64,000 bases of DNA. Origin: Aquipluma nitroreducens. Its GTDB lineage: Bacteria; Bacteroidota; Bacteroidia; Bacteroidales; Prolixibacteraceae. The notes below the pieces were generated by a model that did no database searches, was not told where the DNA came from, and saw only the letters and a list, made by a program, of their open reading frames with translations. Position numbers and translations under genes: made by a program. Every line of letters starts with the position of its first letter. Within the stretch, counting starts at the first letter, position 1. Location: NCBI RefSeq assembly GCF_009689585.1, contig NZ_AP018694.1, positions 4,827,501 to 4,891,500 on the forward strand, written 5' to 3'. Below are positions 37,691-64,000 of the stretch, one piece after another.

Positions 37691-37708
37691 AATAATTTGA
37701 TTTTAAGT

Positions 37709-40698: not shown

Positions 40699-40794
40699 TC
40701 TATGTTTCAATTCAAAAAAGAATCACATTCTCTCCTGAAATCGGAAATGAATGTTTCGAATTACATTTTTCACTATCAAATTACACTTAAGAAA

Positions 40795-42048: not shown

Positions 42049-42087
42049 AATTTGTCGCATAGTCAATTAATAATAATATTTGAAGTT

Positions 42088-44864: not shown

Positions 44865-45207
44865 TTGATCATCCTTTAGGTTTGGTTAATCGTTGTATAA
44901 GGTTTCCGTTGTTAATGGACTTTTAAACAGCAAACCGGAAATCCAATTGTTTGGTGACCATTGAATTGGAATGCATTTTATTCCTGTGCTTTTCTGACTT
45001 TTGCCTCCATTATCTATGTACTAATTTCATTGAAACTGTATGAAATTTTCAATGACACTAAATTTCAAAAATTCACCCCATCCGAAGAGTGATTTTCCTA
45101 CCGAAAGTGAGATGGGAATTTTTCAGACTCTCTTCAGGTACTGGCTAAATCGAAAAAAATATAGAATTTACATTGATGATCATTTTGGCTTCTGGTTGGC
45201 AAAGAAT
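44865..45207. other. Intergenic stretch between the GH27 and DeoR genes
   Basis: These 343 bases hold the upstream region of the minus-strand GH27 gene. No -7 box could be placed with confidence. A plus-strand frame begins at 45040 but runs into the DeoR coding region and shows no family resemblance. Confidence 0.4.
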
Positions 45208-45993
45208 TTAGGCTATAATGACCTTAATATTTGCATCCTCAAGTCGCTTTTTATCGCTTTCCAGAATTCCTGAATCAGTAATTACAATGTTAATTTTATC
45301 GAGCTTACAAATAAAAGCAAGGCTTTTCCGAAGGAATTTGGAAGAATCGGTTACAACAATTACTTCACGGGCAACTTCAATCATGATTTGATTCATGTAA
45401 GCCTCCTCAATGTTTGGTGTTGAAATGCCATTCGAAGGGTCAAAGCCATCAACGCCAAGAAATACTTTGTCGACATAGAAATTTTTAAGATTTCTTTCAG
45501 CTAGCGGGCCAATAAAGCATAATGAATTTTTACGTAATACTCCGCCGGGCATAATCAAATTGATATTTGTATTCGAAACCAATTGATTAGCGATATTTAA
45601 AGCATTGGTAATAATAGTTACATTATTCAACGATGTCGAAAGGTTTTTTACGATTTCGACTGTAGTTGTACCTGAATCGATTATTACAGTGTCAGAATCA
45701 TTAATAAGCTTAGCCGCAACTTTGCCAATTCTGCTTTTTTCCGACATATTTATTTTGTTTTTTTCTCCCAGTTGCTGGTCAAAGCTTACTGTCTGATTTA
45801 TACTCATAGCTCCACCACGTGCACGAACTAAAAGTTTTTTCATTTCAAGTTGTTCCAAATCATTACGGATAGTTACTTCACTAACACCGAATTCTTTGCT
45901 GAGATCGTTAACAAAAACCTGATCATGCGCAGAAAGCATCTGCATGATTTTCATCCGTCTTTCAACTGTGTTGTGCTGATTAATTTTTCCCAT
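45208..45993 (-). CDS. DeoR/GlpR-family regulator (AgaR-like)
   Basis: A 261-residue protein. The N-terminal DeoR winged helix reads RRMKIMQMLSAHDQVFVNDL, SKEFGVSEVTIRNDLEQLE, KKLLVRARGGAM. The C-terminal DeoRC sensor domain contains IIDSGTTTVEI, TIITNALNIA, IMPGGVLRKNSLCFIGPLAE and VDKVFLGVDGFD. This domain binds sugar phosphates. It is divergent from the AgaS gene with a 253-base gap holding an AgaR-like box, so it probably represses agaS in response to an amino-sugar phosphate. Confidence 0.9.
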   Translation of the reverse strand: MGKINQHNTVERRMKIMQMLSAHDQVFVNDLSKEFGVSEVTIRNDLEQLEMKKLLVRARGGAMSINQTVSFDQQLGEKNKINMSEKSRIGKVAAKLINDSDTVIIDSGTTTVEIVKNLSTSLNNVTIITNALNIANQLVSNTNINLIMPGGVLRKNSLCFIGPLAERNLKNFYVDKVFLGVDGFDPSNGISTPNIEEAYMNQIMIEVAREVIVVTDSSKFLRKSLAFICKLDKINIVITDSGILESDKKRLEDANIKVIIA

Positions 45994-46190
45994 ATACTTT
46001 TTTTAGTTCCGTTGGTTGCTCAAAACAAGGGAGTTTTTCAACTGATTGCAAAGATAGCCAATAATTTTTTTATCTACTGAATTCAATTGTATTACAAATA
46101 TAAAACATATAAGGTAACGAAACTGATTTGACAACTAAAGAAAAGATAAAATAAATTTAAATGTAGTAAATTAAATGAAAAAAAAATATA

Positions 46191-46217
46191 TATATTTGTA
46201 ATGAAAGTAAACGAAAG
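46191..46217 (+). promoter_or_regulatory. agaS promoter with AgaR-like operator
   Basis: A TATATTTG -7 box (46191-46198) is followed by gaaagtaaacgaaag (46203-46217). Its reverse strand reads CTTTCGTTTACTTTC, close to the TTTCRTTTYRTTTY repeat bound by AgaR-type DeoR regulators. The box would lie over the transcription start. The DeoR protein encoded divergently is the likely ligand, by inference. Confidence 0.55.
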
Positions 46218-46246
46218 AATATTTACAAAAATTACAACCAAGCCCT

Positions 46247-47416
46247 ATGAATACGAATAAATCTTCCGATTCAGTTTTTTCGAAGCAGGATAAAACTTAT
46301 ACCGGGAAAGAGATTTGGAATCAGCCAGTATTGTGGCAAGAGATTTTTACCCAGGTCCAGCAGGAAAAACAATCTATCACTTCATTTTTAAATAAAGCAC
46401 TCCAACACAATAATTTAAATATTGTTATTACAGGAGCTGGAACAAGTGCATTTATTGGTCTTTCTCTTTCTGGTATTTATGGCCGAAAATCAGGAAAACA
46501 TGTGAATGCGGTTTCAACCACTGATCTGGTTACCCATCCTAACGATTATTTAAGCACTGACAGTCCGGTACTGTTAATATCATTTGCACGTTCAGGGAAT
46601 AGTCCTGAAAGCGTTGCGGCTGTTAGCATTGCAGATCAGGTTTGTTCAAAAGTGTTCCACTTTATTATTACCTGCGACGAGAAAGGCGAATTGGCAAAAT
46701 ACGACACCTATTCGCCAAAATTTGTTTTTGTTCTTCCTGAAAATGCAAATGATAAAAGTCTGGCCATGACCGGTAGTTATTCAGGAATGCTGCTGGCCGG
46801 ATTACTTATTGCAAGAATAAATGAAATTGATTCGCTGGCTCCGCAGGTCAACGTGCTTATTCAGTACGGTCAAAAATTACTTGGTCAATCAGAAATATTC
46901 AGAGAAATTGCCGAAATGAGTTTCGAAAGGGCTGTTTTTCTTGGATCGGGTCCTTTATTGGGAACAGCTACTGAATCTCATTTAAAATTGCAGGAACTTA
47001 CCGATGGAAACATCATTTGCAAAAGAGATTCTTTTCTTGGGTTCAGACATGGGCCCAAAGCGGTTATCAATAACAAAACGCTTGTTTTTCTTCTCTTTTC
47101 GAATCAACAGTATGTCATTCAATACGAAACCGACCTCATTGAATCACTTCATGACGGACAACAACCTTTATATACAGTTGGACTAATTGAAAGCGGTACT
47201 TTAAAAGCAAAAATTGATCGCGTTTTTGTTCTGTCCGATAAAGGAAATCAGCTTGATGAGGAGTTTTTGCCGGTTTGTTTTATTCTTCCTGCCCAAATGA
47301 TCGGGTTTTATAAATCGATCCAACTTGGATTGAATCCTGATTCGCCATCGTTAAGTGGCGCTATTAACAGGGTAGTAAAAGGTGTTTTAATTTATCCATA
47401 CGAAAATAAAGATTGA
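46247..47416 (+). CDS. agaS: AgaS-like SIS-domain sugar-phosphate isomerase/deaminase
   Basis: A 389-residue protein with two SIS domains. Domain 1 has IVITGAGTSAFIGLSLSG, VSTTDLVTHPNDYL and LLISFARSGNSPESVAA. Domain 2 has AVFLGSGPLLGTATESHLK, LQELTDGNI and FRHGPKAVI. This is the layout of AgaS, which deaminates galactosamine-6-phosphate (to tagatose-6-phosphate) or acts as an aldose-ketose isomerase. It is cytoplasmic. Control by the divergent DeoR protein fits GalNAc/GalN use. Confidence 0.9.
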   Translation: MNTNKSSDSVFSKQDKTYTGKEIWNQPVLWQEIFTQVQQEKQSITSFLNKALQHNNLNIVITGAGTSAFIGLSLSGIYGRKSGKHVNAVSTTDLVTHPNDYLSTDSPVLLISFARSGNSPESVAAVSIADQVCSKVFHFIITCDEKGELAKYDTYSPKFVFVLPENANDKSLAMTGSYSGMLLAGLLIARINEIDSLAPQVNVLIQYGQKLLGQSEIFREIAEMSFERAVFLGSGPLLGTATESHLKLQELTDGNIICKRDSFLGFRHGPKAVINNKTLVFLLFSNQQYVIQYETDLIESLHDGQQPLYTVGLIESGTLKAKIDRVFVLSDKGNQLDEEFLPVCFILPAQMIGFYKSIQLGLNPDSPSLSGAINRVVKGVLIYPYENKD

Positions 47417-48909
47417 TGAATCAGCTTATGAAAACCATTTTCTTTTATTTATTATGCGGATTACTTGGTCAGACATTTCTAATGGCTCAGGAAAATAATG
47501 TCATTATGAAAGTCAAACCAAAAGAAATTAACGATGTACTGACAAATCCGGGAATAGGATTTACAACCTTTCAACGTTTTAACGGAGATGATTTAAATGA
47601 AGGGATACGTTGGACTGAAGGTTTACCAATTGTATATCAGAACTTTGATGGTGACCTGACCAATAAAAACTACCCTCAGACAACTATTGCCTATTTCAGG
47701 GTAAACTGGCGATTTTTAGAACCAGAATGTCAACAGTATAACTGGCCAATGATTGATAAAGCCTTAAAAACAGCAGCCGAAAGGGGACAAACGTTGATGC
47801 TTCGCATTTCACCCTATGAAGCTGAAGCTGAAAAAGACGTGCCCGGTTGGTACAGGGAAATGGTTGGGCCAGAGAAACAACAGGGGATAGCAAAATGGAG
47901 GGTCGACCCCGAAGACCCCCGGTATATAAAATATTTTGGAGGGATGATCAAAGCCTTGGGGCAGCGGTATGACGGGCATCCAGATTTAGAATCTGTCGAT
48001 GTTTCATTTATCGGTTACTGGGGCGAAGGAGAAGGTTCCCATTTATTGTCTGATCCTTCGCGGTTGGCTTTAATCAATGCATATCTGGATAATTTTAAAA
48101 AGACAACCTTGACTTTCCAGCCGCTCAATGGTGATGCACCTGACCCTGGAGTTTTGGTTAATGGCACGAATATAGCCGCTTACTGGCCTGACGGGAGAAA
48201 CAATGGTACCGGAACTCAAATGCGTAATCTGGGTTGGCGTTTGGATTGTCATGGAGATTTGAGAAGAAGTGAATGGAACCACATGACTGATGTTTATCCG
48301 GAAGACATTATAAAAAGTGGAATGAGTGAAGCTTGGAGAAAGGCACCAGTTACACTTGAAATTTGCGGGACATTCTTAAGTTGGCTCCAAAAACAAAAAT
48401 ACAGTGAAGAAACTGTGGAATACATTTTTGAACAAGGCCTCAAATGGCATGTTTCTTCTTTTAATGCTAAAAGTTCAGCAGTACCAAAAGAATGGAGACC
48501 ATTGGTGGATAATTGGTTGAACAAAATGGGCTACCGATTCGTACTTCGCAGGTTTACTTACCCATCAGTTGTAACGGTCCAAGGCCAGTTGCGCATTACA
48601 TCATGGTGGGAAAACAAAGGAGTAGCACCTATTTATAAGGATTACAAATTTGCCCTTCGAATTAAAAATACTGAAAAAACAGTGATATTAAGTACCAGCG
48701 CCAATATTCTTAACTGGTTTCCTGGTGATATAGTCCATGACGAAAACCTGTATATTCCTCATGACATGCCTGTGGGAACCTATGAACTCGAAATTGCCAT
48801 CGTTTCCCCTGTTTCTTATGAACCTAAAGTGAAATTGGCTATTGATGGAGTAAATGAAGATGGCTGGTACCCAATGGGAAAAATAGAAATAAAGGAAAAT
48901 AAACAATAG
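47416..48909 (+). CDS. Secreted DUF4832 family protein (TIM-barrel glycoside hydrolase-like)
   Basis: From ATG 47416 the protein has 497 residues and a signal peptide (MKTIFFYLLCGLLGQTFLMA, then Q). The N-terminal DUF4874-like part has LTNPGIGFTTFQRF and YFRVNWRFLEPE. The DUF4832 domain includes SFIGYWGEGEGSH and ends in a beta-sandwich (SVVTVQGQLRITSWWENKG). Acidic residues in the barrel resemble GH42/GH5-type enzymes, but no activity is established to my knowledge. The start overlaps the agaS stop by one base, so the two are probably co-transcribed. Confidence 0.8.
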   Translation: MNQLMKTIFFYLLCGLLGQTFLMAQENNVIMKVKPKEINDVLTNPGIGFTTFQRFNGDDLNEGIRWTEGLPIVYQNFDGDLTNKNYPQTTIAYFRVNWRFLEPECQQYNWPMIDKALKTAAERGQTLMLRISPYEAEAEKDVPGWYREMVGPEKQQGIAKWRVDPEDPRYIKYFGGMIKALGQRYDGHPDLESVDVSFIGYWGEGEGSHLLSDPSRLALINAYLDNFKKTTLTFQPLNGDAPDPGVLVNGTNIAAYWPDGRNNGTGTQMRNLGWRLDCHGDLRRSEWNHMTDVYPEDIIKSGMSEAWRKAPVTLEICGTFLSWLQKQKYSEETVEYIFEQGLKWHVSSFNAKSSAVPKEWRPLVDNWLNKMGYRFVLRRFTYPSVVTVQGQLRITSWWENKGVAPIYKDYKFALRIKNTEKTVILSTSANILNWFPGDIVHDENLYIPHDMPVGTYELEIAIVSPVSYEPKVKLAIDGVNEDGWYPMGKIEIKENKQ

Positions 48910-51108: not shown

Positions 51109-51372
51109 GTAAGTTAAAAGTAACCGACATCAACAGGGTGGAAAGACGGGCGGAATCGTGACAGAACATCCAACCAATTAAGTGAGAGGTTAAGCCCATA
51201 ATGGCCTGCATGTGAAAATTGACCAGAGGGATGATAACAGATTAAAAATATTTGCACGAGAAGGATTTTTGAAGCTGAATATAAGAGGAAGAGTTTTAAT
51301 TAACGGATGTGATTGGTTTCAATATAAATCAAATGATAGATATTCAAAATGGCTAATCAAGATTTAATCTTT

Positions 51373-53637
51373 ATGAAAAAAAAACAAATATTTTACAGGG
51401 CGGGTTTTAATTATTCGAATTTATTCAAAATAGTTTTCACTTTAGTGTCAATTATATTGCTGATTAACAACCAAATTAAGGCTCAGGATAAAGTTAGTGT
51501 TATAAATGAACTTGATGTGATACATTCAAAGGAAGGAGGAGGAAAAGATAATGCCTGGATTCAATTCAATGATGCTCCTAATTCATTATATCACTATATT
51601 GCCGGACAAGCTTATCCTTTACTTGATCAGCGAGTCAGCTTTGTAGTCGGTTTGCACTCTCTTTCCGATTGGCAAAAAAGGCAGGAATTTTTGCGTAAAA
51701 CCTTGTTAGATATTGTAGGGCCTTTCCCTGAGAAAACTCCCTTAAATGCAAAGATCACCAGAACTATTGAAAAGGATAGTTACAGGGTAGAACATATAAT
51801 TTATGAGTCTCAGCCCGGTTTATATGTTACATCATCTATGTTTATCCCTCATGGACTTAAAAAGGGTAATAAAGTTCCATGCATTATCTTTTGCAGTGGA
51901 CATTCAGATAATGGATATCGCTACTTATCATACCAGAATATAATACTTAACCTGGTAAAAAAGGGATTCATCGTATTCGCATTTGATCCGGTTGATCAGG
52001 GAGAGCGTCTTGAGTATTTTGATCCGCAAACCAATATGCCTAAACCTGGTGGATCAGACTCGTGGCACTCATATAGTGGAGCTCAGGCATTGATAACAGG
52101 AAGTTCTCAGGTTAAGTATATGATGTGGGATGGAATCAGGGCTGTGGATTATGTCCTCACAAGAAGCGAGGTGGATCCTGCCAGAATAGGGATCACAGGT
52201 ACCTCAGGCGGAGGAACACAATCTGCTTTTATAGCCGCACTTGATGATCGTATATATGCAACTGCTCCTTCATGTTTCATTACCAATTACACCAGAATAT
52301 TTCAATCCATTGGACCTCAGGATGCTGAACAAAACATGTTTAATGGAATACTGAGTGGATTAGATCATGGTGATCTTCTTTTGGTTAGAGCACCAAAACC
52401 TGCTTTGATTTTAGCCACTACGGAAGATTTTTTCAGTATTCAGGGAGCCAGAGAGACTGCAAAAGAAGTGTCAAACATGTATAAGGCCTTTGGTAAAGAG
52501 GATAACTTTAGTATAGCTCAAGATGGTGGACCTCATGGGACAACCCCCAAAAACAGGGAAGCAATGTATGCTTTTTTTCAGACATCTTTAAATAATCCAG
52601 GCAATCCGAAGGAAGAGAAAGTTGAACCGTTAAGCACTGAGGAGATGCAGGTAAGCAAAACGGGACAGGTTTATACCTCTTTTAGGGGAGAAACTATTTT
52701 CAGTTTGAACTGCAAAGAGTCAGAAAAATTGGTTGCAAAATTACAATTTTCCAGAAATGATCTTTCCAGACATCTTCCCGAGGTATTAGAATCAGCTAAA
52801 AAGCTTTCTGGTTATCAAAATCCATTAGTAACCAGTGAACCGGTTTTTACCGGACGTATTCAGCGGGATGGTTATGTGATTTATAAGTATTTTATTGCTG
52901 GTGAGGGTAATTATATTATTCCTTATCTGTTAATGGTACCAGATAAGTCAAACAATAAAGCTCTGATCTATCTTCATCCTTCAGGCAAGTCAGCCGAAGC
53001 TTCTGTTGGTGGCGAGATGGAATGGTTTGTTAGGAATGGTTTTACAGTGCTGGCTCCGGATATGATTGGAGTTGGTGAAATGGGACCGGGGGATTTTCAC
53101 GGAGATTCATATATTGAAGGTGTCTCCTTTAATGTATGGTTTAGTTCCATGCTTATTGGAAGAAGTATCGTGGGAATTAGAGCTGGTGACGTTGTAAGGC
53201 TCACTCAATTGTTGAAGAAAAACATTGGAATAAGTGAGGTTTATGGATTTGCAAGAAAAGAAATGGGGTCGGTATTGTTGTATGCGGCAGCTTTTGATCC
53301 GGCAATTACCAGGATAGCCCTAATAAAACCTTATTCCTCTTACCGATCTATTGTTATGAGCCGCTTTTATAATCCCGCGTTTATTTATAGCACTGTTCCA
53401 GGAGCTCTTAAGGCTTTTGATCTTCCTGATCTTGAAGCCAGTCTGGCACCAAGGAAGTTGATGATGGTAAGTGTTACAGATGCATCGGGGTCTACTGTTG
53501 GTATTGAAGATATTAATCAAGATCTGGACATAATTAGAAATGCTTATCATTTCAGAAATGTTGATGGACAATTAAACATTGTATCCCCGAAGCCAAATGA
53601 AAATCTATGCAATTTTTTTTCGAAATGGATCGAATAG
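51373..53637 (+). CDS. Secreted tandem alpha/beta-hydrolase (acetyl-xylan-esterase type)
   Basis: From ATG 51373 the protein has 754 residues with a signal region ending IKAQ. The first alpha/beta-hydrolase domain (about 80-410) has CIIFCSGHSDNGYRY, FDPVDQGERLEYFD and the nucleophile elbow ITGTSGGGTQS (Ser). The second (about 500-754) has LIYLHPSGKSAEAS and FTVLAPDMIGVGE but reads ARKEMGSVLL where a GxSxG elbow is expected, so it is probably inactive. Likely role: removal of acetyl or other acyl groups from glycans. Confidence 0.82.
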   Translation: MKKKQIFYRAGFNYSNLFKIVFTLVSIILLINNQIKAQDKVSVINELDVIHSKEGGGKDNAWIQFNDAPNSLYHYIAGQAYPLLDQRVSFVVGLHSLSDWQKRQEFLRKTLLDIVGPFPEKTPLNAKITRTIEKDSYRVEHIIYESQPGLYVTSSMFIPHGLKKGNKVPCIIFCSGHSDNGYRYLSYQNIILNLVKKGFIVFAFDPVDQGERLEYFDPQTNMPKPGGSDSWHSYSGAQALITGSSQVKYMMWDGIRAVDYVLTRSEVDPARIGITGTSGGGTQSAFIAALDDRIYATAPSCFITNYTRIFQSIGPQDAEQNMFNGILSGLDHGDLLLVRAPKPALILATTEDFFSIQGARETAKEVSNMYKAFGKEDNFSIAQDGGPHGTTPKNREAMYAFFQTSLNNPGNPKEEKVEPLSTEEMQVSKTGQVYTSFRGETIFSLNCKESEKLVAKLQFSRNDLSRHLPEVLESAKKLSGYQNPLVTSEPVFTGRIQRDGYVIYKYFIAGEGNYIIPYLLMVPDKSNNKALIYLHPSGKSAEASVGGEMEWFVRNGFTVLAPDMIGVGEMGPGDFHGDSYIEGVSFNVWFSSMLIGRSIVGIRAGDVVRLTQLLKKNIGISEVYGFARKEMGSVLLYAAAFDPAITRIALIKPYSSYRSIVMSRFYNPAFIYSTVPGALKAFDLPDLEASLAPRKLMMVSVTDASGSTVGIEDINQDLDIIRNAYHFRNVDGQLNIVSPKPNENLCNFFSKWIE

Positions 53638-53696: not shown

Positions 53697-55073
53697 ATGA
53701 ATACAAAAGATTTAACACGAAGAAATTTCATTGGTAAAACAGCAGCCGGGTTGGTCGGTGTAGCGGTTTCATCAAGTGTATCATCCATGAGTGCAGCTTC
53801 ATACAAGAGGATAATAGGTGCAAACGATCGAATCAATATCGGACTTTTAGGTTGTGGTGCCCGGAGCCATGGGCACCAAAACATGGTTAAAATGTCGGAA
53901 AAGGATAAAAATTTGGGGGTAGTTGCTGTTTGTGATATATGGAAACTTAATAGGGAAAAAACAGCAGCAAACTGTAAAAACATGTTTGGGGCAGATGTAA
54001 GGCAGTTTAAATATTCAGAAGAAATGTTAAAAATGCCTGATCTGGATGCCGTGATGATCGCTACCGGGGATTTCCAGCATGCCAAACTTTTGGCAGAGGT
54101 TGTTAAAGCAGGGAAAGATTGCTATGTTGAAAAACCCTTGGCCGAGAGTGTCGAAGAAGCTAAGCAGGCGAGGGAAGCCGTACTGGCTTCCGGGCAGGTT
54201 GTTCAACAAGGATCGGAATGGCTAAGTGATCCTATCCAGCATAAAGTGCGTGACATTATACGTTCCGGCAAGTTGGGCCAGATAACCAAAATTGAACAGG
54301 TTTGGAACGACAATAATCACCGGTGGCATGACCCAAAAGACCCGGACGTAGCCTCGATCAGGGAAGAGGATACTGACTGGAACAGATGGTTGTTGGGCAA
54401 ACCCTACGAACCGTTTGATCCGTGGAAATATTTTGAGTTCAGGATTTTCCGGGAATACTCCGGTGGTATCACTTCTCAATGGATGAGCCATGGTATCGGG
54501 TTAGTCCATTTTTATACCGACACGGCCATTCCTGATTCGATGGTTGCCAACGGCGGGATATTTGGTTGGCCTGACATCCGGCAAAACCCCGATACGTTTC
54601 AGGCACTTGCAACATACAACGATGCGAAATTCATGTATTCCTATACGTCTAATTATGCAAGCAAATTTGGAGATTACACCTGTATCCGCGGGAAAGACGG
54701 GACATTGTTCGCACATGGAGGGGAAGGGAGTCCCCGTTGGTTCTTAATTCCCGAACATTTGGAGCTTCCGGGAGGATTTGATTTTTATGAAGGACTGAAA
54801 GAAGCGGTCAAAAGTGGCAAAGCTGAAATGATAACGATAGAAGAATACGGAATGAAACTTCCTCCAGTCAATGGGAGTGATGACAGTAAATTTCACATGG
54901 ACAACTGGGTGGATTGCATGCGAAGCAGGAACCCCAATACAAACGGGCATATTCATACCGGTTTTTGGCATTCCATTGGTAGCATAATGGCTACACAAGC
55001 TTACCGTGAAGGAAAAAAACTTTACTGGGATCGCACGAAAGAAGAGATCGTTGACCATCCGGTAATCATTTAA
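53697..55073 (+). CDS. Tat-exported Gfo/Idh/MocA oxidoreductase (1)
   Basis: A 458-residue protein. The Tat signal is TRRNFIGK followed by a hydrophobic stretch. The Rossmann domain has RINIGLLGCGARSHGH and AVCDIWKLNREKT, with the EKP motif in CYVEKPLAES. The substrate domain contains WLSDPIQHKVRDIIRSGKLG and SGGITSQWMSHGIGLVHFYT. The EKP motif indicates a true NAD(P)-dependent oxidoreductase rather than a GH109 hydrolase. It is the first of four such genes in this run. Confidence 0.88.
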   Translation: MNTKDLTRRNFIGKTAAGLVGVAVSSSVSSMSAASYKRIIGANDRINIGLLGCGARSHGHQNMVKMSEKDKNLGVVAVCDIWKLNREKTAANCKNMFGADVRQFKYSEEMLKMPDLDAVMIATGDFQHAKLLAEVVKAGKDCYVEKPLAESVEEAKQAREAVLASGQVVQQGSEWLSDPIQHKVRDIIRSGKLGQITKIEQVWNDNNHRWHDPKDPDVASIREEDTDWNRWLLGKPYEPFDPWKYFEFRIFREYSGGITSQWMSHGIGLVHFYTDTAIPDSMVANGGIFGWPDIRQNPDTFQALATYNDAKFMYSYTSNYASKFGDYTCIRGKDGTLFAHGGEGSPRWFLIPEHLELPGGFDFYEGLKEAVKSGKAEMITIEEYGMKLPPVNGSDDSKFHMDNWVDCMRSRNPNTNGHIHTGFWHSIGSIMATQAYREGKKLYWDRTKEEIVDHPVII

Positions 55074-55144
55074 CCGGTTCACTATATTTTGTATTCCTAC
55101 CTTATTGCAAAGTAAGGGTTAAAATAATTTTTAAAAGAATCCAA

Positions 55145-56512
55145 ATGACAGAAAGAAGAGATTTTATCAAGAAAAGTGTAATTGGAACTGCTGGAATAGC
55201 TATTGGTGGCATGGGATTCAGCACAAAAACCTATGCGTCGATTATCGGTGCCAATGAACGAATTAATGTCGCCGTTATAGGTATCCGGAACCGGGGAAAA
55301 GACCATTATCGTGCCCTTGCGAAAATTCCCAATGTAAATATTGTGGCTATTTGCGACATTGATAAAAGACTTATCCCTGAAGCAGTAGCTGAAATTGAAA
55401 AACTTACAGGAAGGAAACCAGCCGTTGAAGCAGAATACCGAAAGATTCTTGAAAACAAAGATATCGATGCGGTTACGATAGCTACTCCAAATCACTGGCA
55501 CGCACTGCAAACCATATGGGCCTGTCAGGCAGGAAAGGACGTATATGTTGAGAAACCAGTGTCTCACACCCTATTAGAAAGCCGGAAAATGGTAGAAGCA
55601 GCCCGAAAATACAATCGGGTGGTACAGACAGGAACACAGGCTCGGAGCCAAACTTCTACAAGGAATGCTATTAAATTTATGAATGACGGTGGATTAGGAA
55701 AAATATATATGGCCAGGGGCCTTTGCCTGAAACCTCGTGGAAGTATTGGCCATGTAAAAAACAGCGAGATACCCAATGGTGTGGACTGGAATACTTTTCT
55801 TGGACCTACTCCGTACCGTCCTTTTAACGAAAATAGGTTTCATTACAAGTGGCACTGGTTCTGGGATACCGGTTGCGGGGATCTGGGAAACCAGGGAATT
55901 CATCAGGCAGATGTTGCCCGATGGGCACTGGGAAAAAGTACACATCCAGTCAGAATCCAGGGTGTTGGGAATTATTTTATATGGGATTCTGATCAGGAAA
56001 CCCCCAATATGCAGCAACTTGAATTTGAATATGAAGACGGATCGATTTTACAATTTGAAGTACGCGGGTTAGGTACAAATTCCGAAGCAGGAATTCGGGT
56101 GGGTGACCTTATTTACGGCTCTAAAGGTTGGATGAGCATGGAGAGTGAAGATGAAGGGACTGGAAAAGTTTACCACAGCAACATTAACATCAAACCCGAT
56201 GGATTTTCGTCTTACAAAGAAGAAGAAGGCCCGGTTTTCACCAATGATATTCCGGATGAGGCTGAATCTGTGGTCAATCACTTTACTAATTTTATCGAAT
56301 GCGTGAAATCCAGAAAATGGCAGAATTTGAATGCAGAAATCATGGAAGGGCATTTATCTACCTCGCTGTGTCATTTGGGAAATATTGCAACCCGGCTAAA
56401 GCGACCCCTTTATTTTAATCCGGGAGCCGAAAAATTTATAAACGACGCGGAAGCAGATACTTACCTGACTAAAATATATAGGCCTCCGTTTTTATTGCCG
56501 GAAAACGTTTAA
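55145..56512 (+). CDS. Tat-exported Gfo/Idh/MocA oxidoreductase (2)
   Basis: A 455-residue protein. The Tat signal is ERRDFIKK. The Rossmann domain has [18 protein letters not shown] and [14 protein letters not shown]. The EKP motif lies in [10 protein letters not shown], followed by [20 protein letters not shown] and [20 protein letters not shown] in the substrate domain. It starts 71 bases after oxidoreductase 1 and 26 bases before the DUF1080 gene. It probably oxidises or reduces a glycoside at C3. Confidence 0.88.
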
Positions 56513-56538
56513 TATCTATTTTAATACATATCAAAACT

Positions 56539-57900
56539 ATGAAAAACCTGATTTATATATTTGCCGGAATTATCGTACTAATGACTTCATGTAATACTCC
56601 TAATGATCCTTGGGAAAATCTAATCAAGGAGAATCTTGGGAATTGGCAACAGATTAACGGTCCTGCACATTATGAAGTTAAAGATGGGGTAATTATCGGA
56701 ACCGCAGCAACAAGCGATCCTTCCGACGATTCGTTTCTTTGTACGAAAGCTAATTATGGCGATTTTATCCTTGAGTTCGATACATGGCTTGACCCTCAGA
56801 TGAACTCAGGGGTAAATATACGCAGTGAAAGCCGTCCAAATTATCTTGATGGCCAGGTTTACGGGTACCAGTTTGAACTTGATCCTTCTCCAAGATCATG
56901 GACTGGTGGCATTTACGATGAGTCAAGAAGGCTCTGGTTATATACACTCGATATTAATCCCCCTGCAAAAAAAGCGTATAAAAACGGCGAATGGAACCAT
57001 TGCCGCATCGAAGCTATTGGAAATTCAATCCGGACTTGGGTCAATGGGATACCCTGTGCTGATCTTGCTGACGATATGACACCGACAGGGTTTATCGGGC
57101 TTCAGGTACACGGAATTGGAAACGATTCAGGTAAGGTTGGCATACAGGTTAAATGGAAAAATCTCAGGATTATGACCAAAAATCTGGAACAATATGCTAC
57201 CCCTTATCTGCCTGTTATCCCTCAAAGCAGTTATCTGAAGAACACGCTGAGCGACCGGGAGCTTAAAGATGGCTGGAAATTGCTTTGGGATGGAAAAACC
57301 ACCAATGGATGGCGCGGCGCAAAACTTTCGGCTTTCCCTTCAACCGGTTGGGAAATTAAGGATGGCACCCTGACTATCCATGGGTCAGGAGGAGCTGAGG
57401 CAGCATCAGGAGGCGATATCGTAACGGCTGATAAGTATAAGAATTTTGAGGTTGTCGTTGACTTTAAGTACTCTCCGGGAGCAAATAGCGGCATTAAATA
57501 CTTCGTCGATACCAACCTAAACAAAGGGGAAGGCTCCTCAATTGGTTGCGAATATCAGATTCTTGATGACAAATTGCATCCGGATGCACACGAAGGAATT
57601 GGTGGAAACCGCACCCTGGCAGGTCTTTATGATCTTATAGCCCCGTTGCCCAAACGCGATAATGGTACCGGGCAATGGAACAGAGCTACTATCGTTGTTA
57701 ACGGAAACCATGTTGAACACTGGCTCAACGGGCAGAAAACTGTTGAGTACGAAAGAGGAAACGATGCATGGAAGGCTCTTGTAGCAACAAGCAAATATAA
57801 AATCTGGCCAAATTTCGGGGAAGCAACTGAAGGGAATATCCTTCTTCAGGACCATGGATGGGAAGTCTCTTTCAAAAATATGAAAATAAAAGAATTGTAA
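56539..57900 (+). CDS. Lipoprotein with two DUF1080 (3-keto-glycoside hydrolase-like) domains
   Basis: A 453-residue lipoprotein with a leader ending IVLMTSC (Cys18). Domain 1 (about 20-215) has [20 protein letters not shown] and [13 protein letters not shown]. Domain 2 (about 230-453) has [55 protein letters not shown] and [19 protein letters not shown]1080 proteins include 3-keto-disaccharide hydrolases, which act after a Gfo/Idh/MocA enzyme has oxidised C3. Its place between two such enzymes supports a joint role outside the cytoplasm. Confidence 0.88.
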
Positions 57901-57931
57901 GATCAAATAACTAACTTAACACCAGACTAGT

Positions 57932-59272
57932 ATGGAAAGCAATAGAAGAGATTTTATTAAAAAAACATTAGTTGGTGTAACTGCATTATCTGCTGGCGGT
58001 ATCCTTCCCGGATTCAGCGTGCGAAGTTACAACCGTATTTTGGGTTCAAACGAGAAAATCAGGATATCGGTTATGGGTGTTAACTCGCGGGGAAAAGCCC
58101 TCGCCGAAACCTATGCCAGCCAGCCAAACTGCGATGTGATACACATTTGCGATGTTGATCGCCGGGCAATGGAAAAGTGCATTGCTTCTGTAACCGAAAT
58201 CCAACAACACCAACCAAAGGGTTTGTCCGACTTCCGCCGTTCGTTGGAGAGCAAAGACATAGATGGTATGGTAATCGCAACACCCGACCACTGGCATGCT
58301 CCTGCAGCAATTTTGTCGATGCAGGCCGGAAAGCATGTGTATGTGGAAAAACCATGCAGTCATAACCCGGCCGAAGGGGAATTATTGATAAAAGCAGCCG
58401 ACAAATGCGGAAAAGTAATACAAATGGGAAACCAACGCCGTTCGTATCCGAATGTGATTAAGGCCATTCAGGAATTGAGAAACGGTGCAATCGGCCGGTC
58501 TTATCTGGGCAAAGGTTGGTACACCAACAATCGCGGACCAATTGGGATTGGCAAAGAAGTTGACGTACCGGAGTGGCTCGACTGGGACTTGTGGCAGGGC
58601 CCTGCCCCCCGAAAAGCCTATAAAGACAATATCGTTCATTACAACTGGCACTGGCGCTGGCACTGGGGAACAGGCGAAGCCCTGAACAACGGCACACACA
58701 TGGTCGACTTATTGCGTTGGGGACTTGATGTCGATTTCCCAACCAAAGTGAGTTCTGCCGGGGGACGCTACCGTTATAAGGACGACTGGGAAACACCAGA
58801 CACACAGATCATCAATTTTGAATTTGGCTACAACATTGCTATGACCTGGGAAGGACGTAGCTGCAACGGAAAAACCATCGAAGGAAGTACGGTCGGAGCT
58901 TTATTTTACGGCGAAAACGGCAGTTTGATGATTGACGGAAATGCATACACCATTTTCGATTTGGAGAGCAAAGTGGTTAAAGTAGTAAAAAACGAAGAAG
59001 TTATTGATGCCCGGAACTTATCAAATCCGGCCAGCGATCTCGACAGTTTGCACATTCAAAACTTTTTTTCCAGCATTAAAACCGGAGAAAAACTGAATTC
59101 TGACATTGATTCCGGCCATAAAAGTACACTGCTGGTTCAGTTGGGAAATATTTCGCAACGTGTTGGACACTCCTTAAACATTGATCCAAAAACAGGACAT
59201 ATACTTGACGACAAGGATGCCATGCAATTTTGGCAACGCAGCTACGAAAAGGGCTGGGAAATAAAATTGTAA
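57932..59272 (+). CDS. Tat-exported Gfo/Idh/MocA oxidoreductase (3)
   Basis: A 446-residue protein. The Tat signal is NRRDFIKK. The Rossmann domain has RISVMGVNSRGKALAETYAS and HICDVDRRAMEKC, with the EKP motif in VYVEKPCSHN. The substrate domain includes VIQMGNQRRSYPNVIKAIQE and WHWRWHWGTGEALNNGTHMV. It starts 32 bases after the DUF1080 gene. The base composition of this gene is slightly more G+C-rich than its neighbours. It probably works with the DUF1080 protein. Confidence 0.88.
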   Translation: MESNRRDFIKKTLVGVTALSAGGILPGFSVRSYNRILGSNEKIRISVMGVNSRGKALAETYASQPNCDVIHICDVDRRAMEKCIASVTEIQQHQPKGLSDFRRSLESKDIDGMVIATPDHWHAPAAILSMQAGKHVYVEKPCSHNPAEGELLIKAADKCGKVIQMGNQRRSYPNVIKAIQELRNGAIGRSYLGKGWYTNNRGPIGIGKEVDVPEWLDWDLWQGPAPRKAYKDNIVHYNWHWRWHWGTGEALNNGTHMVDLLRWGLDVDFPTKVSSAGGRYRYKDDWETPDTQIINFEFGYNIAMTWEGRSCNGKTIEGSTVGALFYGENGSLMIDGNAYTIFDLESKVVKVVKNEEVIDARNLSNPASDLDSLHIQNFFSSIKTGEKLNSDIDSGHKSTLLVQLGNISQRVGHSLNIDPKTGHILDDKDAMQFWQRSYEKGWEIKL

Positions 59273-59358
59273 CGAAGAAATCAGAGAAAATTTTAATCAG
59301 GAGAAAAATTTCCTCCCCCTTTTTATGGGTACAGGAACGCTCCATAAGTTTTGAAACG

Positions 59359-60342
59359 ATGAACACTCGAAGATCATTTATAAAAACTGTGAGTACGGGG
59401 ACTGCCCTTTCTACCCTGACATTTTCAACTGTTGGAGCCACTGCTTCCCGCCTGATTTCTGAAAATCTTTCCGGAGAAAAACCCATTCGTATTGGCATTA
59501 TTGGTGCCGAGAATTCGCATACGGTCGGATATGGAAAGCTTTTCAATATCGATAAAAAATTTCCGGGAGTAGAGCTTAAATATGTATGGGGCGAAACGGA
59601 AGAGTTTGCAAAAGAGTCTATGACCAAAGGCCAAATCCCATATATGGTGAAAGATCCGTTAGAAATGCTTGGAAAGATCGACGCACTGATTGTCGACCAC
59701 CGGCACGCCAAATATCATTTAAAAGCAGCAGAACCATTTGTAAAAGCAGGTATCCCAACCTTCATTGACAAACCTTTTTGTTACACGGTTGCTGAAGGAA
59801 AAGAATTTCTGGAAATGGCCCGGGAAGCTGGCACTCCGGTTTCATCATACAGCACCATTGCACATACAGATTCGACATTCGATATAGTTGATCAGATAAA
59901 GTCGCTTGGCGAATTCAACAATATTATACGCAATGGCCCGGCTGATATTGAATCTCCCTATGGTGGAATATTCTTTTACGGTGTGCATCTGGTACAACCG
60001 CTGATGTATATGTTTGGCGAAGATATCAAAGTGGTAAAAATCAATAAATATGGGAAAAAAGCAGGAGCTGTTCTGATTTTTGAAAGTGGTTTACAGGCCA
60101 ATCTGGTGTTCAATACGCTTCACTACGGTTGGGAAACATATGTGGAAACAAAAAAAGGAATTGTTGAACTCAAATCAAGGGTTCAGGAATCCGTACCTGA
60201 AAGATGTTACCGCGATATGGTCGAAATGTTCCGTACCGGAAAAGAGCCACTCAGCCATGAAAGTATCTTAAAACCGATAGCAGTACTCGAAGCAATGGAA
60301 AAATCAGTTTCAAGTGAAAAATGGGAAGAGGTAAAAATGTGA
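59359..60342 (+). CDS. Tat-exported Gfo/Idh/MocA family protein (4), shorter
   Basis: From ATG 59359 the protein has 327 residues. The Tat signal is TRRSFIKT. The Rossmann domain has RIGIIGAENSHTVGYGKLF and ALIVDHRHAKYHLKAAEPF. The usual EKP motif is changed to FIDKPFCYT (Asp for Glu). The C-terminal part is shorter than in the other three. An upstream frame to 59230 overlaps the preceding gene and carries no signal, so the later start is used. It is 86 bases after oxidoreductase 3 and probably acts outside the cytoplasm. The function is unknown. Confidence 0.8.
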   Translation: MNTRRSFIKTVSTGTALSTLTFSTVGATASRLISENLSGEKPIRIGIIGAENSHTVGYGKLFNIDKKFPGVELKYVWGETEEFAKESMTKGQIPYMVKDPLEMLGKIDALIVDHRHAKYHLKAAEPFVKAGIPTFIDKPFCYTVAEGKEFLEMAREAGTPVSSYSTIAHTDSTFDIVDQIKSLGEFNNIIRNGPADIESPYGGIFFYGVHLVQPLMYMFGEDIKVVKINKYGKKAGAVLIFESGLQANLVFNTLHYGWETYVETKKGIVELKSRVQESVPERCYRDMVEMFRTGKEPLSHESILKPIAVLEAMEKSVSSEKWEEVKM

Positions 60343-60359
60343 GAATAAAAAACAAGAAT

Positions 60360-61586
60360 ATGAATTACTCTTTTCCACATAAAATCCAGCAATCAATTGT
60401 TTTATACTTAATACTGACAATGAACGTTTCCTTTGCCCAGACCAAAATTGAAGGCTTGTTATACCTCAACAAAAAACCTGTTTCCGTAGAGATAAAAGAC
60501 GGAAATATCATTAGTGTGCAGCAAATCGATAAATATACCGACGAAAGTAATCCGGTTTACATTGCACCAGGACTGATTGATCTTCAAATCAATGGATACA
60601 TGGGTATCGATTTCTCAGATCAGAATTTAAATACTGAAGGAATAAGAAAAGCTGTAAAAGCCCTTTGGAAGCAAGGAGTGACGTCCTTTCTACCTACTTT
60701 GATTACAGCTGATCAGGAACATCTCAGAAATAGTTTTTCGATTCTTGCAAAGGCATTGGATGATGAAGAAATTGGCCTGTCAGTCCCTGGATTCCATCTC
60801 GAAGGGCCATACATCTCTCCTGAAAAGGGATTTCGCGGGGCACATCTGGAAAAATACATCAGAAAGCCTGACTGGAATGAATTTCAGGAATTACAGAAAG
60901 CTGCGCACAATGGCATTAAACTAATTACTGTTGCTCCTGAAATAGAAGGAGCTATTTCGTTTATTCAAAAATGCAGTCGTGAAGGAATTGTTGTTTCACT
61001 TGGACATCACAATGGAAATGCACAGCAAATTAAACTGGCAACAGATGCCGGAGCCTCCCTGTCTACTCATTTGGGCAATGGTTGTGCAAACCTGATCGAC
61101 CGTCACAATAATCCTCTATGGCCGCAACTTGCCGACGATCGTCTATCGGTAAGTCTTATTGTTGACGGATTTCATTTGAATCAGGAAGAGGTACAATGTT
61201 TTTACAAAATCAAAGGAATCAACCGCACTATATTGATTTCAGACGCACTCGATCTTGCAGGACTTGAACCCGGAGAATACACCAGATGGGAAAGAACTGT
61301 GGTTTTAACTCCTGATGTTGTGAAATTTCCGGCAGAAAATGTGTTGGCTGGAGCTGCCTCTCCCATTACCGCCGGTGTATCAAATATGATGAATTTCACA
61401 CAATGCAGTCTCGCCGATGCCATTCAAATGGCCAGTACCAATCCGGCCAGGCTAATTGGGTTGAAAAACCTTGGGGAAATTAAGCCAGGGATGCGGGCTG
61501 ATTTAATTGTATTTAAAATGGAAAACTCGAAAATTGTTATTCAGAAAACCATTGTTGCCGGCAAAGTAGTTTATTCAAACCATTAA
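60360..61586 (+). CDS. NagA-like N-acetylglucosamine deacetylase with a signal peptide
   Basis: From ATG 60360 the protein has 408 residues. It starts with a likely signal peptide (IQQSIVLYLILTMNVSFA, then Q). The amidohydrolase barrel shows APGLIDLQINGYMGIDF, FHLEGPYISPEKGFRGAH (metal Glu), VVSLGHHNGNA and STHLGNGCANL (metal His), LIVDGFHL and the catalytic Asp in LISDALDLAG. Ordinary NagA is cytoplasmic, deacetylates GlcNAc-6-phosphate and has THLFNAM where this has THLGNGC. Export plus this change suggest a non-phosphorylated N-acetyl sugar as substrate, by inference. Confidence 0.85.
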   Translation: MNYSFPHKIQQSIVLYLILTMNVSFAQTKIEGLLYLNKKPVSVEIKDGNIISVQQIDKYTDESNPVYIAPGLIDLQINGYMGIDFSDQNLNTEGIRKAVKALWKQGVTSFLPTLITADQEHLRNSFSILAKALDDEEIGLSVPGFHLEGPYISPEKGFRGAHLEKYIRKPDWNEFQELQKAAHNGIKLITVAPEIEGAISFIQKCSREGIVVSLGHHNGNAQQIKLATDAGASLSTHLGNGCANLIDRHNNPLWPQLADDRLSVSLIVDGFHLNQEEVQCFYKIKGINRTILISDALDLAGLEPGEYTRWERTVVLTPDVVKFPAENVLAGAASPITAGVSNMMNFTQCSLADAIQMASTNPARLIGLKNLGEIKPGMRADLIVFKMENSKIVIQKTIVAGKVVYSNH

Positions 61587-61619
61587 TTATTATTTGATAA
61601 TTATTCACACAACAGTCAA

Positions 61620-62930
61620 ATGAATATGAAAGAACAAACCCAAAGTATTGGAAATTATCGTTATCGAATTCTGGCACTGGTATTTATGGCCACTACGATT
61701 AATTATTTTGACCGTAGTATTGTTGGTGTAATGGCCCCAACCTTGCAAAAACTTTTCGACTGGACAAATAAAGACTATGCGGCGATCATGGTCTCCTTCA
61801 AAATTGCCTATGGTATAGGATTGCTGTTCATGGGAAGCATTATTGACCGGCTTGGCACCAAGATAGGATATACTATTTCAATTGTAGTCTGGAGCATATT
61901 CGGAATGCTGCATGCTGTAATCAGGCCGGCTTTCAGTTTAATTGGATTTATTACGGCCCGGTTCGGACTTGGAATTGGCGAGTCGGGAAATTTTCCTGCC
62001 GCAATTAAAACTGTAGCAGAGTGGTTCCCCAAAAAGGATCGGGCTTTTGCCAACGGCATTTTTGATGCATCAACCAGCGTTGGGGCAATTTTAGCCCCGT
62101 TCATTGTTGGAGCCATTGTTTCCCTCGAAGGAGATAACTGGCAAATACCTTTTCTTATTACAGGTGCGCTTAGTGCTTTGTGGGTATTTTTATGGATGAG
62201 AACCTATCAAAAACCGGAAGAACATCCAAAATTATCAAAAGAGGAGTTAGCCTATATTAACAGCGATTCTGAAGAGGAGACAACAGAAAAAATTCCCTGG
62301 TTAAAATTATTACCAAAGAGGGAGACCTGGGCTTTCTCATTAACTACACTAACTGATGGCGTTTGGTGGTTTTATCTTTTCTGGGGTGCGAAATTTCTTG
62401 CAGAACAGTTTGGAGTAGACATTAAAAACATAGGACTTCCTTTTCTGATTATTTTCCTGATGGCTGACGCAGGGAGTCTGCTTGGGGGGTATTCCTCTGG
62501 TGCATTAATAAAAAAAGGCTGGTCAATCAATAAGGCCAGAAAAATAACCATGCTGGTTTGTGCCATTATTATTTTACCAGTAAGCTTGGTACCGGTTATT
62601 ACAAGCAAATGGATAGCAGTCTTTTTAATTGGTCTTGCTGCTGCAGGACATCAGTCATGGTCAATCAATGGCTATACGTTGGTTCCGGATGTTTTTCCCA
62701 AGAAAGCAATCGCTTCTGTGATAGGAATAGGAAAAATGATTGGGGTGGCAGTCGCGATAATTGCGGATATTGCCTTAGGGGCAGTACTTGATACCGCCGG
62801 TAATTCAGGCTATTTCTGGGCATTCATGATCGCAGGGTTCTCTTATATCCTCATCTTGGGATTTGTACATCTGTTGATGCCAAAGATGACCCCATTGGAT
62901 GACAATTTGAATTATATAAATAATAAATAA
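61620..62930 (+). CDS. MFS transporter, hexuronate/sugar-acid (ACS) type
   Basis: A 436-residue protein with twelve predicted segments. It begins [20 protein letters not shown], has [20 protein letters not shown] (loop-2 motif) and [20 protein letters not shown], characteristic of the anion:cation symporter branch (ExuT, GudP, GarP). These carry sugar acids. It starts 33 bases after the NagA-like gene, so it may import the product made by the exported enzymes, perhaps an oxidised or deacetylated sugar. ATG 61626 is an alternative start. Confidence 0.85.
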
Positions 62931-62953
62931 CTTTTTTAAATAACAACAAGAAT

Positions 62954-63682
62954 ATGGAAATTGTAATTTTAAAAAACAAGCAAGCTCTTGGTGAAATAGC
63001 CGCCCATAGGGGTGCAGAATTGATTCGTAAAGCTATCCTCGACGGGGGCATGGCCAACATCATTGTTGCTACAGGTGCATCGCAGTTCGAAATGCTAAAC
63101 GAGTTGGTAAAAGAGGATGTTGACTGGTCGAAAGTCACTGCTTTTCACCTGGATGAATACATCGGCATTTCTGAAATGCACCCTGCATCATTTCGGAAAT
63201 ATCTAAAAGAACGATTTGTAGATATTGTATCCCCGAAAATGTTTCACTATGTAAATGGAGAAATTAATCCGGATGAAGAGTGCAAAATCCTGGGAAATCT
63301 AATCAGCAAACATCCAATTGACGTAGCTTTTGTGGGAATTGGCGAAAACAGTCATTTAGCATTCAATGATCCACCAGCTGATTTCGAAACGGAAGAAGCC
63401 TATCTTGTGGTGACATTGAACGAAGCCTGTCGCCGCCAGCAATTGGGTGAAGGTTGGTTTCCCACAATTAGCGATGTTCCTGAAAAGGCAATCAGTATGT
63501 CTATCAAGCAGATCATGAAATCGAAAGCCATTATCTGTTGTGTCCCCGATTTACGAAAGGCAGAGGCGGTCAAAAAAACGGTTGAAGGTTCAATTTTACC
63601 AGCAATTCCTGCATCGATCATGCGGTGCCATGAGGTTGTATGGCTTTATCTTGATAAAGATTCAGCCTCGATGCTATCCTGA
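62954..63682 (+). CDS. NagB-like glucosamine-6-phosphate deaminase/isomerase
   Basis: A 242-residue protein of the NagB/6-phosphogluconolactonase fold. It has [32 protein letters not shown] and [20 protein letters not shown], then [20 protein letters not shown] and [15 protein letters not shown]. The DEY and [12 protein letters not shown] motifs fit deaminase activity on an amino-sugar phosphate. It is more divergent from E. coli NagB than the copy at 27152. It starts 23 bases after the MFS gene. Confidence 0.85.
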
Positions 63683-63893: not shown

Positions 63894-64000
63894 ATGGCTT
63901 CATCTAATAGTTATAAATCGGATGTCCTTTCAGTAAATGCTACCGAAGCATCTCTTGATAAAAATGGATTAGAAAAAGTGATTGGAATGGGTGTTCGGCT
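63894..64000 (+). CDS. Partial gene at the right edge, not recognised
   Basis: A plus frame begins with ATG 63894 and runs off the window after 35 codons (MASSNSYKSDVLSVNATEAS, then LDKNGLEKVIGMGVR). It follows a 211-base gap after the NagB-like gene. The N-terminus is polar, with no signal peptide. Too little is visible to name a family. Confidence 0.45.
   Translation, partial: MASSNSYKSDVLSVNATEASLDKNGLEKVIGMGVR

Follow-up and report, generated by a model that had tools for sequence, protein, structure and literature searches.

Exported Gfo/Idh/MocA oxidoreductases joined to amino-sugar enzymes in a conserved operon of Aquipluma nitroreducens and its relatives

Does a gene run that places sugar oxidoreductases next to amino-sugar enzymes encode one pathway, or have two unrelated units come to lie side by side in a single strain? 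The question is raised by a 64,000-nt stretch of the Aquipluma nitroreducens contig NZ_AP018694.1 (hereafter the window), in which eight open reading frames (ORFs), all on the + strand and with intergenic gaps of 11-86 bp, occupy positions 53697-63682. The core of this cluster, GfoC-GfoD-NagA-importer-NagB2, is a conserved operon, and the joining of oxidoreductive and amino-sugar genes, noted in a preliminary description of this one locus, recurs across many genera, mostly of Bacteroidota; it is no one-strain accident. The eight co-directional genes and the families assigned to them were borne out by the ORFs and by Pfam and NCBIfam, and the original observation is confirmed and extended here, and the scheme first drawn from it finds support in part. 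On balance, we cautiously favour an extracytoplasmic oxidoreductive route for N-acetylhexosamines as the function of the cluster, its substrates being most likely glycosides of N-acetylgalactosamine (GalNAc) and perhaps also of N-acetylglucosamine (GlcNAc). The gene content, the export signals and the conserved operon with its variants are the observed part of this reading. Fetched loci are given as L-numbers, and L010, L012 and L013 are stretches of the same genome downstream of the window. The eight genes are as follows.

53697..55073, +: GfoA, Tat-type Gfo/Idh/MocA oxidoreductase, EKP (Pfam/NCBIfam); second copy at L013:4168-5544
55145..56512, +: GfoB, Tat-type Gfo/Idh/MocA oxidoreductase, EKP, with GFO_IDH_MocA_C2 (Pfam/NCBIfam)
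56539..57900, +: double DUF1080 (3keto-disac_hyd) lipoprotein (PF06439, PDB 4jqt)
57932..59272, +: GfoC, Tat-type Gfo/Idh/MocA oxidoreductase, marker of the conserved amino-sugar operon (Pfam/NCBIfam, PDB, loci)
59359..60342, +: GfoD, small Tat-type Gfo/Idh/MocA protein, DKP variant (Pfam, structure comparison)
60354..61586, +: NagA-like deacetylase with a Sec-type signal peptide (TIGR00221, aligned residues, N-termini)
61620..62930, +: ACS-type MFS permease (MFS_1, TIGR00893), replaced by an Nramp-like carrier in many relatives
62954..63682, +: NagB2, divergent glucosamine-6-phosphate deaminase-like protein (PF01182, motifs)

Conservation of the operon

The gene order was searched in relatives with NagA and with GfoC as anchors. 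Among 140 genomes of the family, 67 matched NagA at E 1e-40 or better, a count that takes in distant NagA. Outside the window, 63 matches reached at least 40% identity, and neighbourhoods were fetched for 60 of them (the fragments G089, G096 and G016 were left out); since several contigs end within the fetched stretch, the following counts are lower bounds. GfoC was present in 31 of the 60 loci, a GfoD-type gene in 27 and NagB2 in 45; 20 loci hold all three, and the gene order is thus not unique to this strain. An Nramp-like or ACS-MFS carrier was found in 35 loci, a FucP-type importer in 5 and NagX in 10. The arrangement seen most often is GfoC, GfoD, NagA, carrier, NagB2; a LacI-type regulator, identified as LacI by Pfam in one member, frequently precedes it.

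For the second anchor, the genome_contigs collection was scanned with a GfoC alignment, which gave at least 80 loci. These were split into close and distant homologues at 640 bits, a value set after seeing the list, with the truncated L179 placed in the close group. Among the loci listed, at least one amino-sugar gene (NagA, NagB2, GH109, GH20 or NagX) accompanied 25 of 34 close but 4 of 46 distant homologues (Fisher p 2e-9, on loci from related species that are not independent); GH109 also occurs in L063, L128, L132, L148 and L179. The 5.7 Mb A. nitroreducens genome contains one GfoC of at least 60% identity, which serves as a base rate, and the case for a more than chance association comes from the contrast with distant GfoC together with this single close copy. 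A distant NagA lineage (31-34% identity, 17 loci), tried as a Gfo-free control, failed in that role: it has GfoC in 8 loci, a GfoD-type gene in 9 and NagB2 in 13, its GfoC frequency compares with that of the 60 loci at Fisher p 0.79, and it carries the same operon and is therefore not a control. Its NagA is cytoplasmic by the signal rule described below, and its importer is mostly of the FucP type.

Some relatives also share the DUF1080 gene. In two Arenibacter species and in Splendidivirga (L121, L123, L128), the order is LacI, GfoC, GfoD, DUF1080, NagA, Nramp-like carrier, NagB2; Arenibacter has a further gene between LacI and GfoC, and the DUF1080 proteins are 271-284 residues long. This operon is the cluster's composition minus GfoA and GfoB and with another carrier. 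A metagenome-assembled genome of Bacteroidales (L133, 4121-13886) combines a 451-residue DUF1080 protein and an esterase of the type found upstream of GfoA with GfoC, a FucP-type importer, NagA and NagB2. This is close to the composition of the window and speaks against a chance combination confined to its own genome. In the loci L068, L071, L076-L078, L081 and L082, the NagA operon is accompanied by an HpcH-type aldolase and mostly also by RraA-like, DUF4838, GH92 or BNR genes (by eye), which suggests that these variants act on other glycans. A sialic-acid pathway was considered and set aside, BNR and lyase-like genes being present in few loci only.

A candidate route and the oxidoreductases

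The route that we favour would begin with outer enzymes (GH109, GH123 and GH20) and SusC/D proteins that bring the N-acetylhexosamine or its glycosides into the periplasm. There, Tat-exported Gfo proteins carrying their own NAD(H) would oxidise the sugar, probably at C3, and so destabilise the glycosidic bond; where present, the double DUF1080 lipoprotein would cleave the 3-keto glycoside, and a keto product would re-oxidise the enzyme-bound NADH in a redox-neutral cycle. Deacetylation by the exported NagA-like enzyme would follow, still outside the cytoplasm, and yield a cationic amino sugar. This could then enter through the ACS-type MFS permease or, in many relatives, through an Nramp-like carrier devoid of metal motifs, and NagB2 would deaminate and isomerise it in the cytoplasm. 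Other lineages have the same operon with a cytoplasmic deacetylase and a FucP-type importer, and may import the N-acetyl sugar first. We infer the specific chemistry, that is, C3 oxidation, cleavage by DUF1080 and the substrate, from the kinship of the proteins and from their neighbours.

All four Gfo proteins match GFO_IDH_MocA (Pfam/NCBIfam). As already described, three of them are of the EKP type and one is a variant (DKP in GfoD), and their N-termini carry twin-arginine (Tat) motifs (by eye: RRNFI in GfoA, RRDFI in GfoB and GfoC, RRSFI in GfoD); TatC is encoded in the genome. The NCBIfam equivalogs BT_2158_fam and BT_2159_fam, with cut-offs of 750 and 650 bits, are matched below those cut-offs, best by GfoB (162 and 45 bits) and also by GfoC (157 and 24 bits). 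The best solved relatives of GfoC by sequence are PDB 8tdf/8tdh, titled glucoside 3-dehydrogenase AL3, and 8tdf also has the top query TM-score (0.70) among the 50 Foldseek matches listed for its AlphaFold model (mean pLDDT 77.8). The model likewise matches KanD2, DgpA1, glucuronide-3-dehydrogenase, the NAD-dependent glycoside hydrolases 8qc5/8qc2 and RgNanOx (6z3b). Since the family matches as a whole and KanD2 comes first by E-value, the fold of GfoC alone leaves its reaction unfixed. The GfoD model (mean pLDDT 82.8) matches Gfo enzymes at large.

The periplasm offers exported Gfo enzymes no NAD pool, so each of them must close its own redox cycle. A self-contained cycle fits a glycosidase-like mechanism, or one in which a keto sugar serves as acceptor, more readily than it fits a relay from dehydrogenase to reductase; it is more likely that each Tat-exported Gfo enzyme is redox-neutral by itself, and the separate enzymes for oxidation and subsequent reduction in the scheme first put forward become less likely.

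In the likeliest of the alternatives, GfoC, together with GfoD, would itself be a redox-neutral NAD-dependent glycosidase or anhydro-sugar hydrolase, comparable to GH109, GH188 and the enzymes acting on 2,7-anhydro-N-acetylneuraminic acid (2,7-anhydro-Neu5Ac), in which case no free keto sugar would arise and NagA and NagB2 would act on the released N-acetylhexosamine. We regard this as possible, though not as the likelier account. It agrees with the structural matches of GfoC to 8qc5/8qc2 and RgNanOx, with the mechanism described for GH109 and GH188 in excerpts of PMC10755693, and with a conserved core that mostly does without DUF1080 (present in 2 of the 60 NagA-anchored loci). Set against it are the absence from GfoA-GfoD of a Pfam match to Glyco_hydro_109_C, the C-terminal family of GH109, which is present in the GH109 proteins at window position 28064 and at L010:1149; the title of GfoC's nearest solved relative by sequence; and two GfoC paralogues in the same genome (52% and 43% identity) that adjoin DUF1080 genes.

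The double DUF1080 protein is a lipoprotein as described, with PF06439 in two stretches (278 bits), a lipobox read by eye as LMTSC and a close solved relative in PDB 4jqt (E 1.2e-176, residues 24-453). Proteins matching it at E 1e-90 or better occur in 27 of 247 genomes of the order, its own included. In 10 of the 20 loci fetched from the 28 non-own matches, a labelled Gfo gene directly adjoins it, and NagA or NagB2 lies near it in 0 of these 20. These loci and the GfoC paralogues beside DUF1080 make GfoA-GfoB-double DUF1080 look like a generic 3-keto module set beside the amino-sugar operon. DUF1080 stands outside the conserved core here: besides the 2 of 60 loci mentioned above, it occurs, among the loci listed, with 7 of 34 close GfoC genes (amino-sugar genes being present in all 7, and the DUF1080 protein of L133 being of double size) and with 19 of 46 distant ones. 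The A. nitroreducens genome as a whole has 23 DUF1080 domain matches.

A second alternative would go further and treat the cluster as two unrelated neighbours that duplication has made adjacent in a region with many insertion elements: GfoA-GfoB-DUF1080 as a 3-keto module for neutral sugars, and an operon for amino sugars. We think this unlikely. The neighbourhoods of double DUF1080 proteins in the order speak for it, as do the duplications and transposase-like genes of the region. However, a second copy of the region, about 74 kb downstream and 92-97% identical in DNA, consists of GfoA-GfoB-DUF1080-MFS-NagB2-NagX, so that both copies hold GfoA-GfoB-DUF1080 in one run with MFS-NagB2-NagX. GfoB also lies upstream of GfoC in the congener L066, and DUF1080 stands within the operon in L121, L123 and L128 and with GfoC, NagA and NagB2 in L133. 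As relatives keep GfoC-GfoD-NagA together, the short second copy is probably the derived one.

Compartment of the deacetylase, importers and phosphorylation

The NagA-like protein scores 257 bits against TIGR00221 (cut-off 225.65), and its N-terminus carries, by eye, a Sec-type signal ending in NVSFA/Q, as claimed before; the cytoplasmic location that marks a GlcNAc-6-phosphate deacetylase is not what the N-terminus of this strain's protein indicates. Glu150, His218, His239 and Asp297, to which we assign metal or catalytic roles from the alignment and from the E. coli numbering, are identical in every one of the 61 aligned NagA sequences that have a letter there. Export was called by a hydrophobicity rule of our own instead of SignalP: the best 11-residue Kyte-Doolittle mean within the first 50 residues counted as a signal at 2.2 or more and as none below 1.9, ORFs started at the first ATG, GTG or TTG after a stop, and NagA proteins under 320 residues (L115 and L117 among these) were left out. 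Among 81 scored NagA rows of 140 fetched loci, 47 had an export signal, 29 had none and 5 were ambiguous (duplicates included). A second NagA-like gene of the same genome (L065, C1:331752-332870), 67% identical, is signal-less by this rule and lies with NagB2 and a FucP-type importer.

Of 95 rows, 57 could be scored, and in every one of these the signal agrees with the type of importer: an Nramp-like or ACS-MFS carrier accompanies a signal in 34, and the other 23 are signal-less with a FucP-type importer. A row was scorable if it had a clear signal call and an importer of one of these types within 2.5 kb, and the other 38 were not counted; identical rows (L125, L126, L130, L237) were dropped, and L087, L098, L118 and L143 were judged by hand to be N-terminally truncated. 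The signal calls are unsure for L222, whose ORF starts inside the preceding gene, and for L138 and L139, which look over-long. Loci with a sodium-solute symporter are mostly signal-less, with L108 borderline with a signal. The NagA tree contains four compartment changes, and four independent pairs all go in the same direction (sign test p 0.125).

Read simply, a NagA on the outside would hand a deacetylated sugar to the importer, and with NagA on the inside the importer would take up the N-acetyl sugar. The Nramp-like carrier (label U0; PF01566, 196 bits in the one member scanned) has neither DPGN nor MPH, the metal motifs of Nramp: its consensus of 29 rows (duplicates included) shows NIGT and no MPH. 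This is as expected if such carriers move something other than metal. For the permease of the window, the earlier ACS-type label stands in that it matches MFS_1 and has TIGR00893 as its best NCBIfam subfamily, but its 226 bits miss the cut-off of 395. The NagB-like assignment of NagB2 has likewise held for the family (Glucosamine_iso, PF01182, 59 bits) and not for the NCBIfam NagB equivalog (133.5 bits, cut-off 236.9). In NagB2, the phosphate-site signature is altered: the loop TG(G/S)(T/S)P is replaced by TGASQ in the exported variant and mostly by AAPSQ in the FucP variant, and the Arg of NSRFF is not kept, its place being taken by Gly, Glu or Gln in different alignments; Asp67, His134 and Lys202 are retained. 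The canonical NagB of the same window has kept PTGSSP and NSRFF. A natural NagB2-NagA fusion of 628 residues occurs in Cognataquiflexum nitidum (L145:12861-14747).

The usual description of amino-sugar catabolism is import, phosphorylation, deacetylation and deamination. Phosphorylation elsewhere, as first suggested, is possible, but the operons contain no recurring kinase other than a phosphofructokinase: by eye, no kinase-like gene cluster recurs in the NagA/NagB2 runs of 83 loci (117 unlabelled genes), where the 19 clusters found in at least two loci were viewed and single-locus genes were covered among the first 62 clusters. A sugar-acid-kinase-like gene was seen by eye in the single locus L084. 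The phosphofructokinase (label U12), the only labelled kinase within these runs, matches Pfam PFK in the one member scanned and is of the pyrophosphate type by eye.

From these features, a phosphorylation-free pathway can be drawn, which we consider doubtful: oxidation and deacetylation of N-acetylhexosamines would take place outside the cytoplasm; the ACS-MFS permease, or an Nramp-fold carrier whose cargo has changed from metals to an organic cation, would import the free and possibly 3-keto amino sugar; and NagB2, its phosphate site remodelled, would deaminate the unphosphorylated sugar. The opposite extreme is ordinary GlcNAc/GalNAc catabolism, in which the free sugar is imported and phosphorylated, the NagA signal is a membrane anchor or a mis-start, and the Gfo proteins catalyse some side reaction, for instance an epimerisation; the TIGR00221 score, the aligned phosphate-contact residues of NagA, an N-acetylhexosamine kinase-like gene in the window, two ROK matches elsewhere in the genome and the phosphofructokinase would suit it, but it is improbable in view of signal-like N-termini in 47 of 81 rows that agree with the importer type and of runs in which no kinase besides the phosphofructokinase recurs.

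Several observations weigh against the extracytoplasmic oxidoreductive route or parts of it. We know of no activity for any member of the cluster. DUF1080 lies outside the conserved core, most relatives' loci being without it; 9 of the 34 close-GfoC loci, some of them on short contigs, have no amino-sugar gene; and the second copy of the region lacks GfoC, GfoD and NagA. With only four compartment switches, the sign test cannot reach significance. Among the rows judged truncated, L118 (which runs off its contig) and L143 (a short ORF) would be signal-less beside an ACS-MFS if counted, contrary to the rule; if the MFS_w24 type is pooled with the ACS type, the signal-less L221, L223 and L226, whose fetched stretches have no GfoC or NagB2, disagree, and L103 agrees. 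NagA retains the residues aligned with Arg227 and His251, the phosphate contacts of E. coli NagA, which would not be needed for an unphosphorylated substrate, and NagB2 retains the lysine aligned with Lys208 of the E. coli enzyme, against an unphosphorylated route. Phosphofructokinase in six NagA/NagB2 runs suggests that fructose-6-phosphate is formed and hence that there is a kinase step. Finally, a NagX gene beside an exported deacetylase looks futile.

A widespread operon with the deacetylase outside the cytoplasm and a matching importer would represent a second topology of amino-sugar catabolism. The reading would also bring amino sugars within the reach of oxidoreductive glycan breakdown and hint that an Nramp-fold carrier can serve an organic cation. 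Single genes can be tested in culturable bacteria; Mariniphaga anaerophila (L126), Arenibacter arenosicollis (L121) and Draconibacterium aestuarii (L130) are among the culturable relatives that share the operon.

Genomic surroundings and comparison with known systems

The cluster does not end at 63682, as had been proposed, but runs on into a NagX/HGSNAT-like gene 211 bp after NagB2, then into GH109 and a GalNAc-type locus. On the other side, an esterase-like gene ends 59 bp upstream of GfoA and may belong to the same unit; homologues of it (632-714 bits) turn up in 4 of the 140 loci fetched, each of which also has GfoC and one or more amino-sugar genes. The flanking and context features in the window are the following.

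27152-27979: canonical NagB (by eye)
28064..29518, +: GH109 protein (PF21252, 142.7 bits)
40702..43170, +: MFS protein (the label FucP is our own) and N-acetylhexosamine 1-kinase-like protein (PF07690, PF01636)
45204..47423: AgaR-type regulator (-, by eye) and AgaS-type SIS protein (+, PF01380)
51349..53637, +: esterase-like two-domain protein (Abhydrolase_7/AXE1, Pfam), possible first gene of the run
63894..64000, +: start of the NagX/HGSNAT-like membrane protein gene, cut by the window end and running on to L010:1081

The NagX/HGSNAT-like protein matches no Pfam family; its three PDB matches are weak and every one is HGSNAT (heparan-alpha-glucosaminide N-acetyltransferase), with His80 aligned to position 297 of 8vkj/8jkv. 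The N-acetylhexosamine 1-kinase-like protein matches 4ocj/4wh1 (E 2.7e-65). The AgaR-AgaS pair flanks the cluster on both sides, its second occurrence (L010:4312-6531) being 100% identical over 2220 bp. Downstream of the window follow GH109 (L010:1149), a pyridoxal-phosphate-dependent enzyme, the AgaR-type regulator (by eye) and the AgaS-type gene, then GatZ/KbaZ-like and PfkB proteins, SusC/SusD-like genes (by eye), and one GH123 protein with a second scoring below the GH123 cut-off; farther on lie a GH20-like gene and another NagB-like gene (by eye). By its predicted families, the neighbourhood is GalNAc-type, and the amino-sugar setting proposed earlier is substantiated by the GH109, GH123, SIS/AgaS and N-acetylhexosamine kinase proteins around the cluster.

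Insertion elements and duplications abound in the region, with transposase-like genes (by eye) and repeats at window 35175-39268, L012:9707-11389 and L013:12001-13098. A GH27-like alpha-galactosidase/N-acetylgalactosaminidase (window 43621-44864, -; family by eye) is split into two overlapping ORFs and apparently broken. About 45 kb downstream of the cluster end, Gluconate_2-dh3 and GMC oxidoreductase genes are followed by a CxxCH-rich protein (by eye; L012:4503-7883), a set that resembles the LacABC sugar 3-dehydrogenases.

Among the papers listed in literature searches, mostly open-access, we found no report of an exported NagA with Gfo enzymes, of an Nramp glucosamine carrier or of a 3-keto amino-sugar route. 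The known system nearest in its oxidoreductases is the 3-keto-glycoside pathway of Bacteroidota and the lactose route of Caulobacter, where exported dehydrogenases stand beside DUF1080 proteins, as the Tat-type Gfo proteins do here, and where periplasmic hydrolysis of 3'-ketolactose by a DUF1080 protein was proposed (PMC9007349, in part). Unlike that pathway, the core here is GfoC-GfoD with NagA, an importer and NagB2, mostly without DUF1080, and the substrate class appears to be N-acetylhexosamine. The NAD-dependent glycosidases of GH4, GH177, GH179, GH188 and GH109 share C3 chemistry, with a Gfo-type fold in GH109 and GH188 (excerpts of PMC10755693); GH109 proteins lie near the cluster, yet GfoA-GfoD do not match the GH109 C-terminal family. 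For NagX, periplasmic acetylation of glucosamine was proposed and a His at position 297 named as catalytic (portions of PMC9007349). The HGSNAT-like gene follows NagB2 in both copies here, and in the first copy it stands beside an exported deacetylase.

The BT4240-50 GalNAc locus of Bacteroides thetaiotaomicron, to which GH109, an MFS protein and an N-acetylhexosamine kinase are ascribed (sections of PMC11992087), has these three components in common with the present region; the terms 'deacetyl' and 'oxidoreductase' are missing from the main text of that paper, and no such operon is described there. With the NagA-NagB/AgaA-AgaS pathway, whose steps are outlined in part of PMC12118421, the operon shares a deacetylase followed by a deaminase, fused in L145. 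It differs from that pathway in the export signal of this strain's deacetylase, in the motif changes of NagB2, in the added oxidoreductases and in having as its recurring operon kinase phosphofructokinase alone, in six loci.

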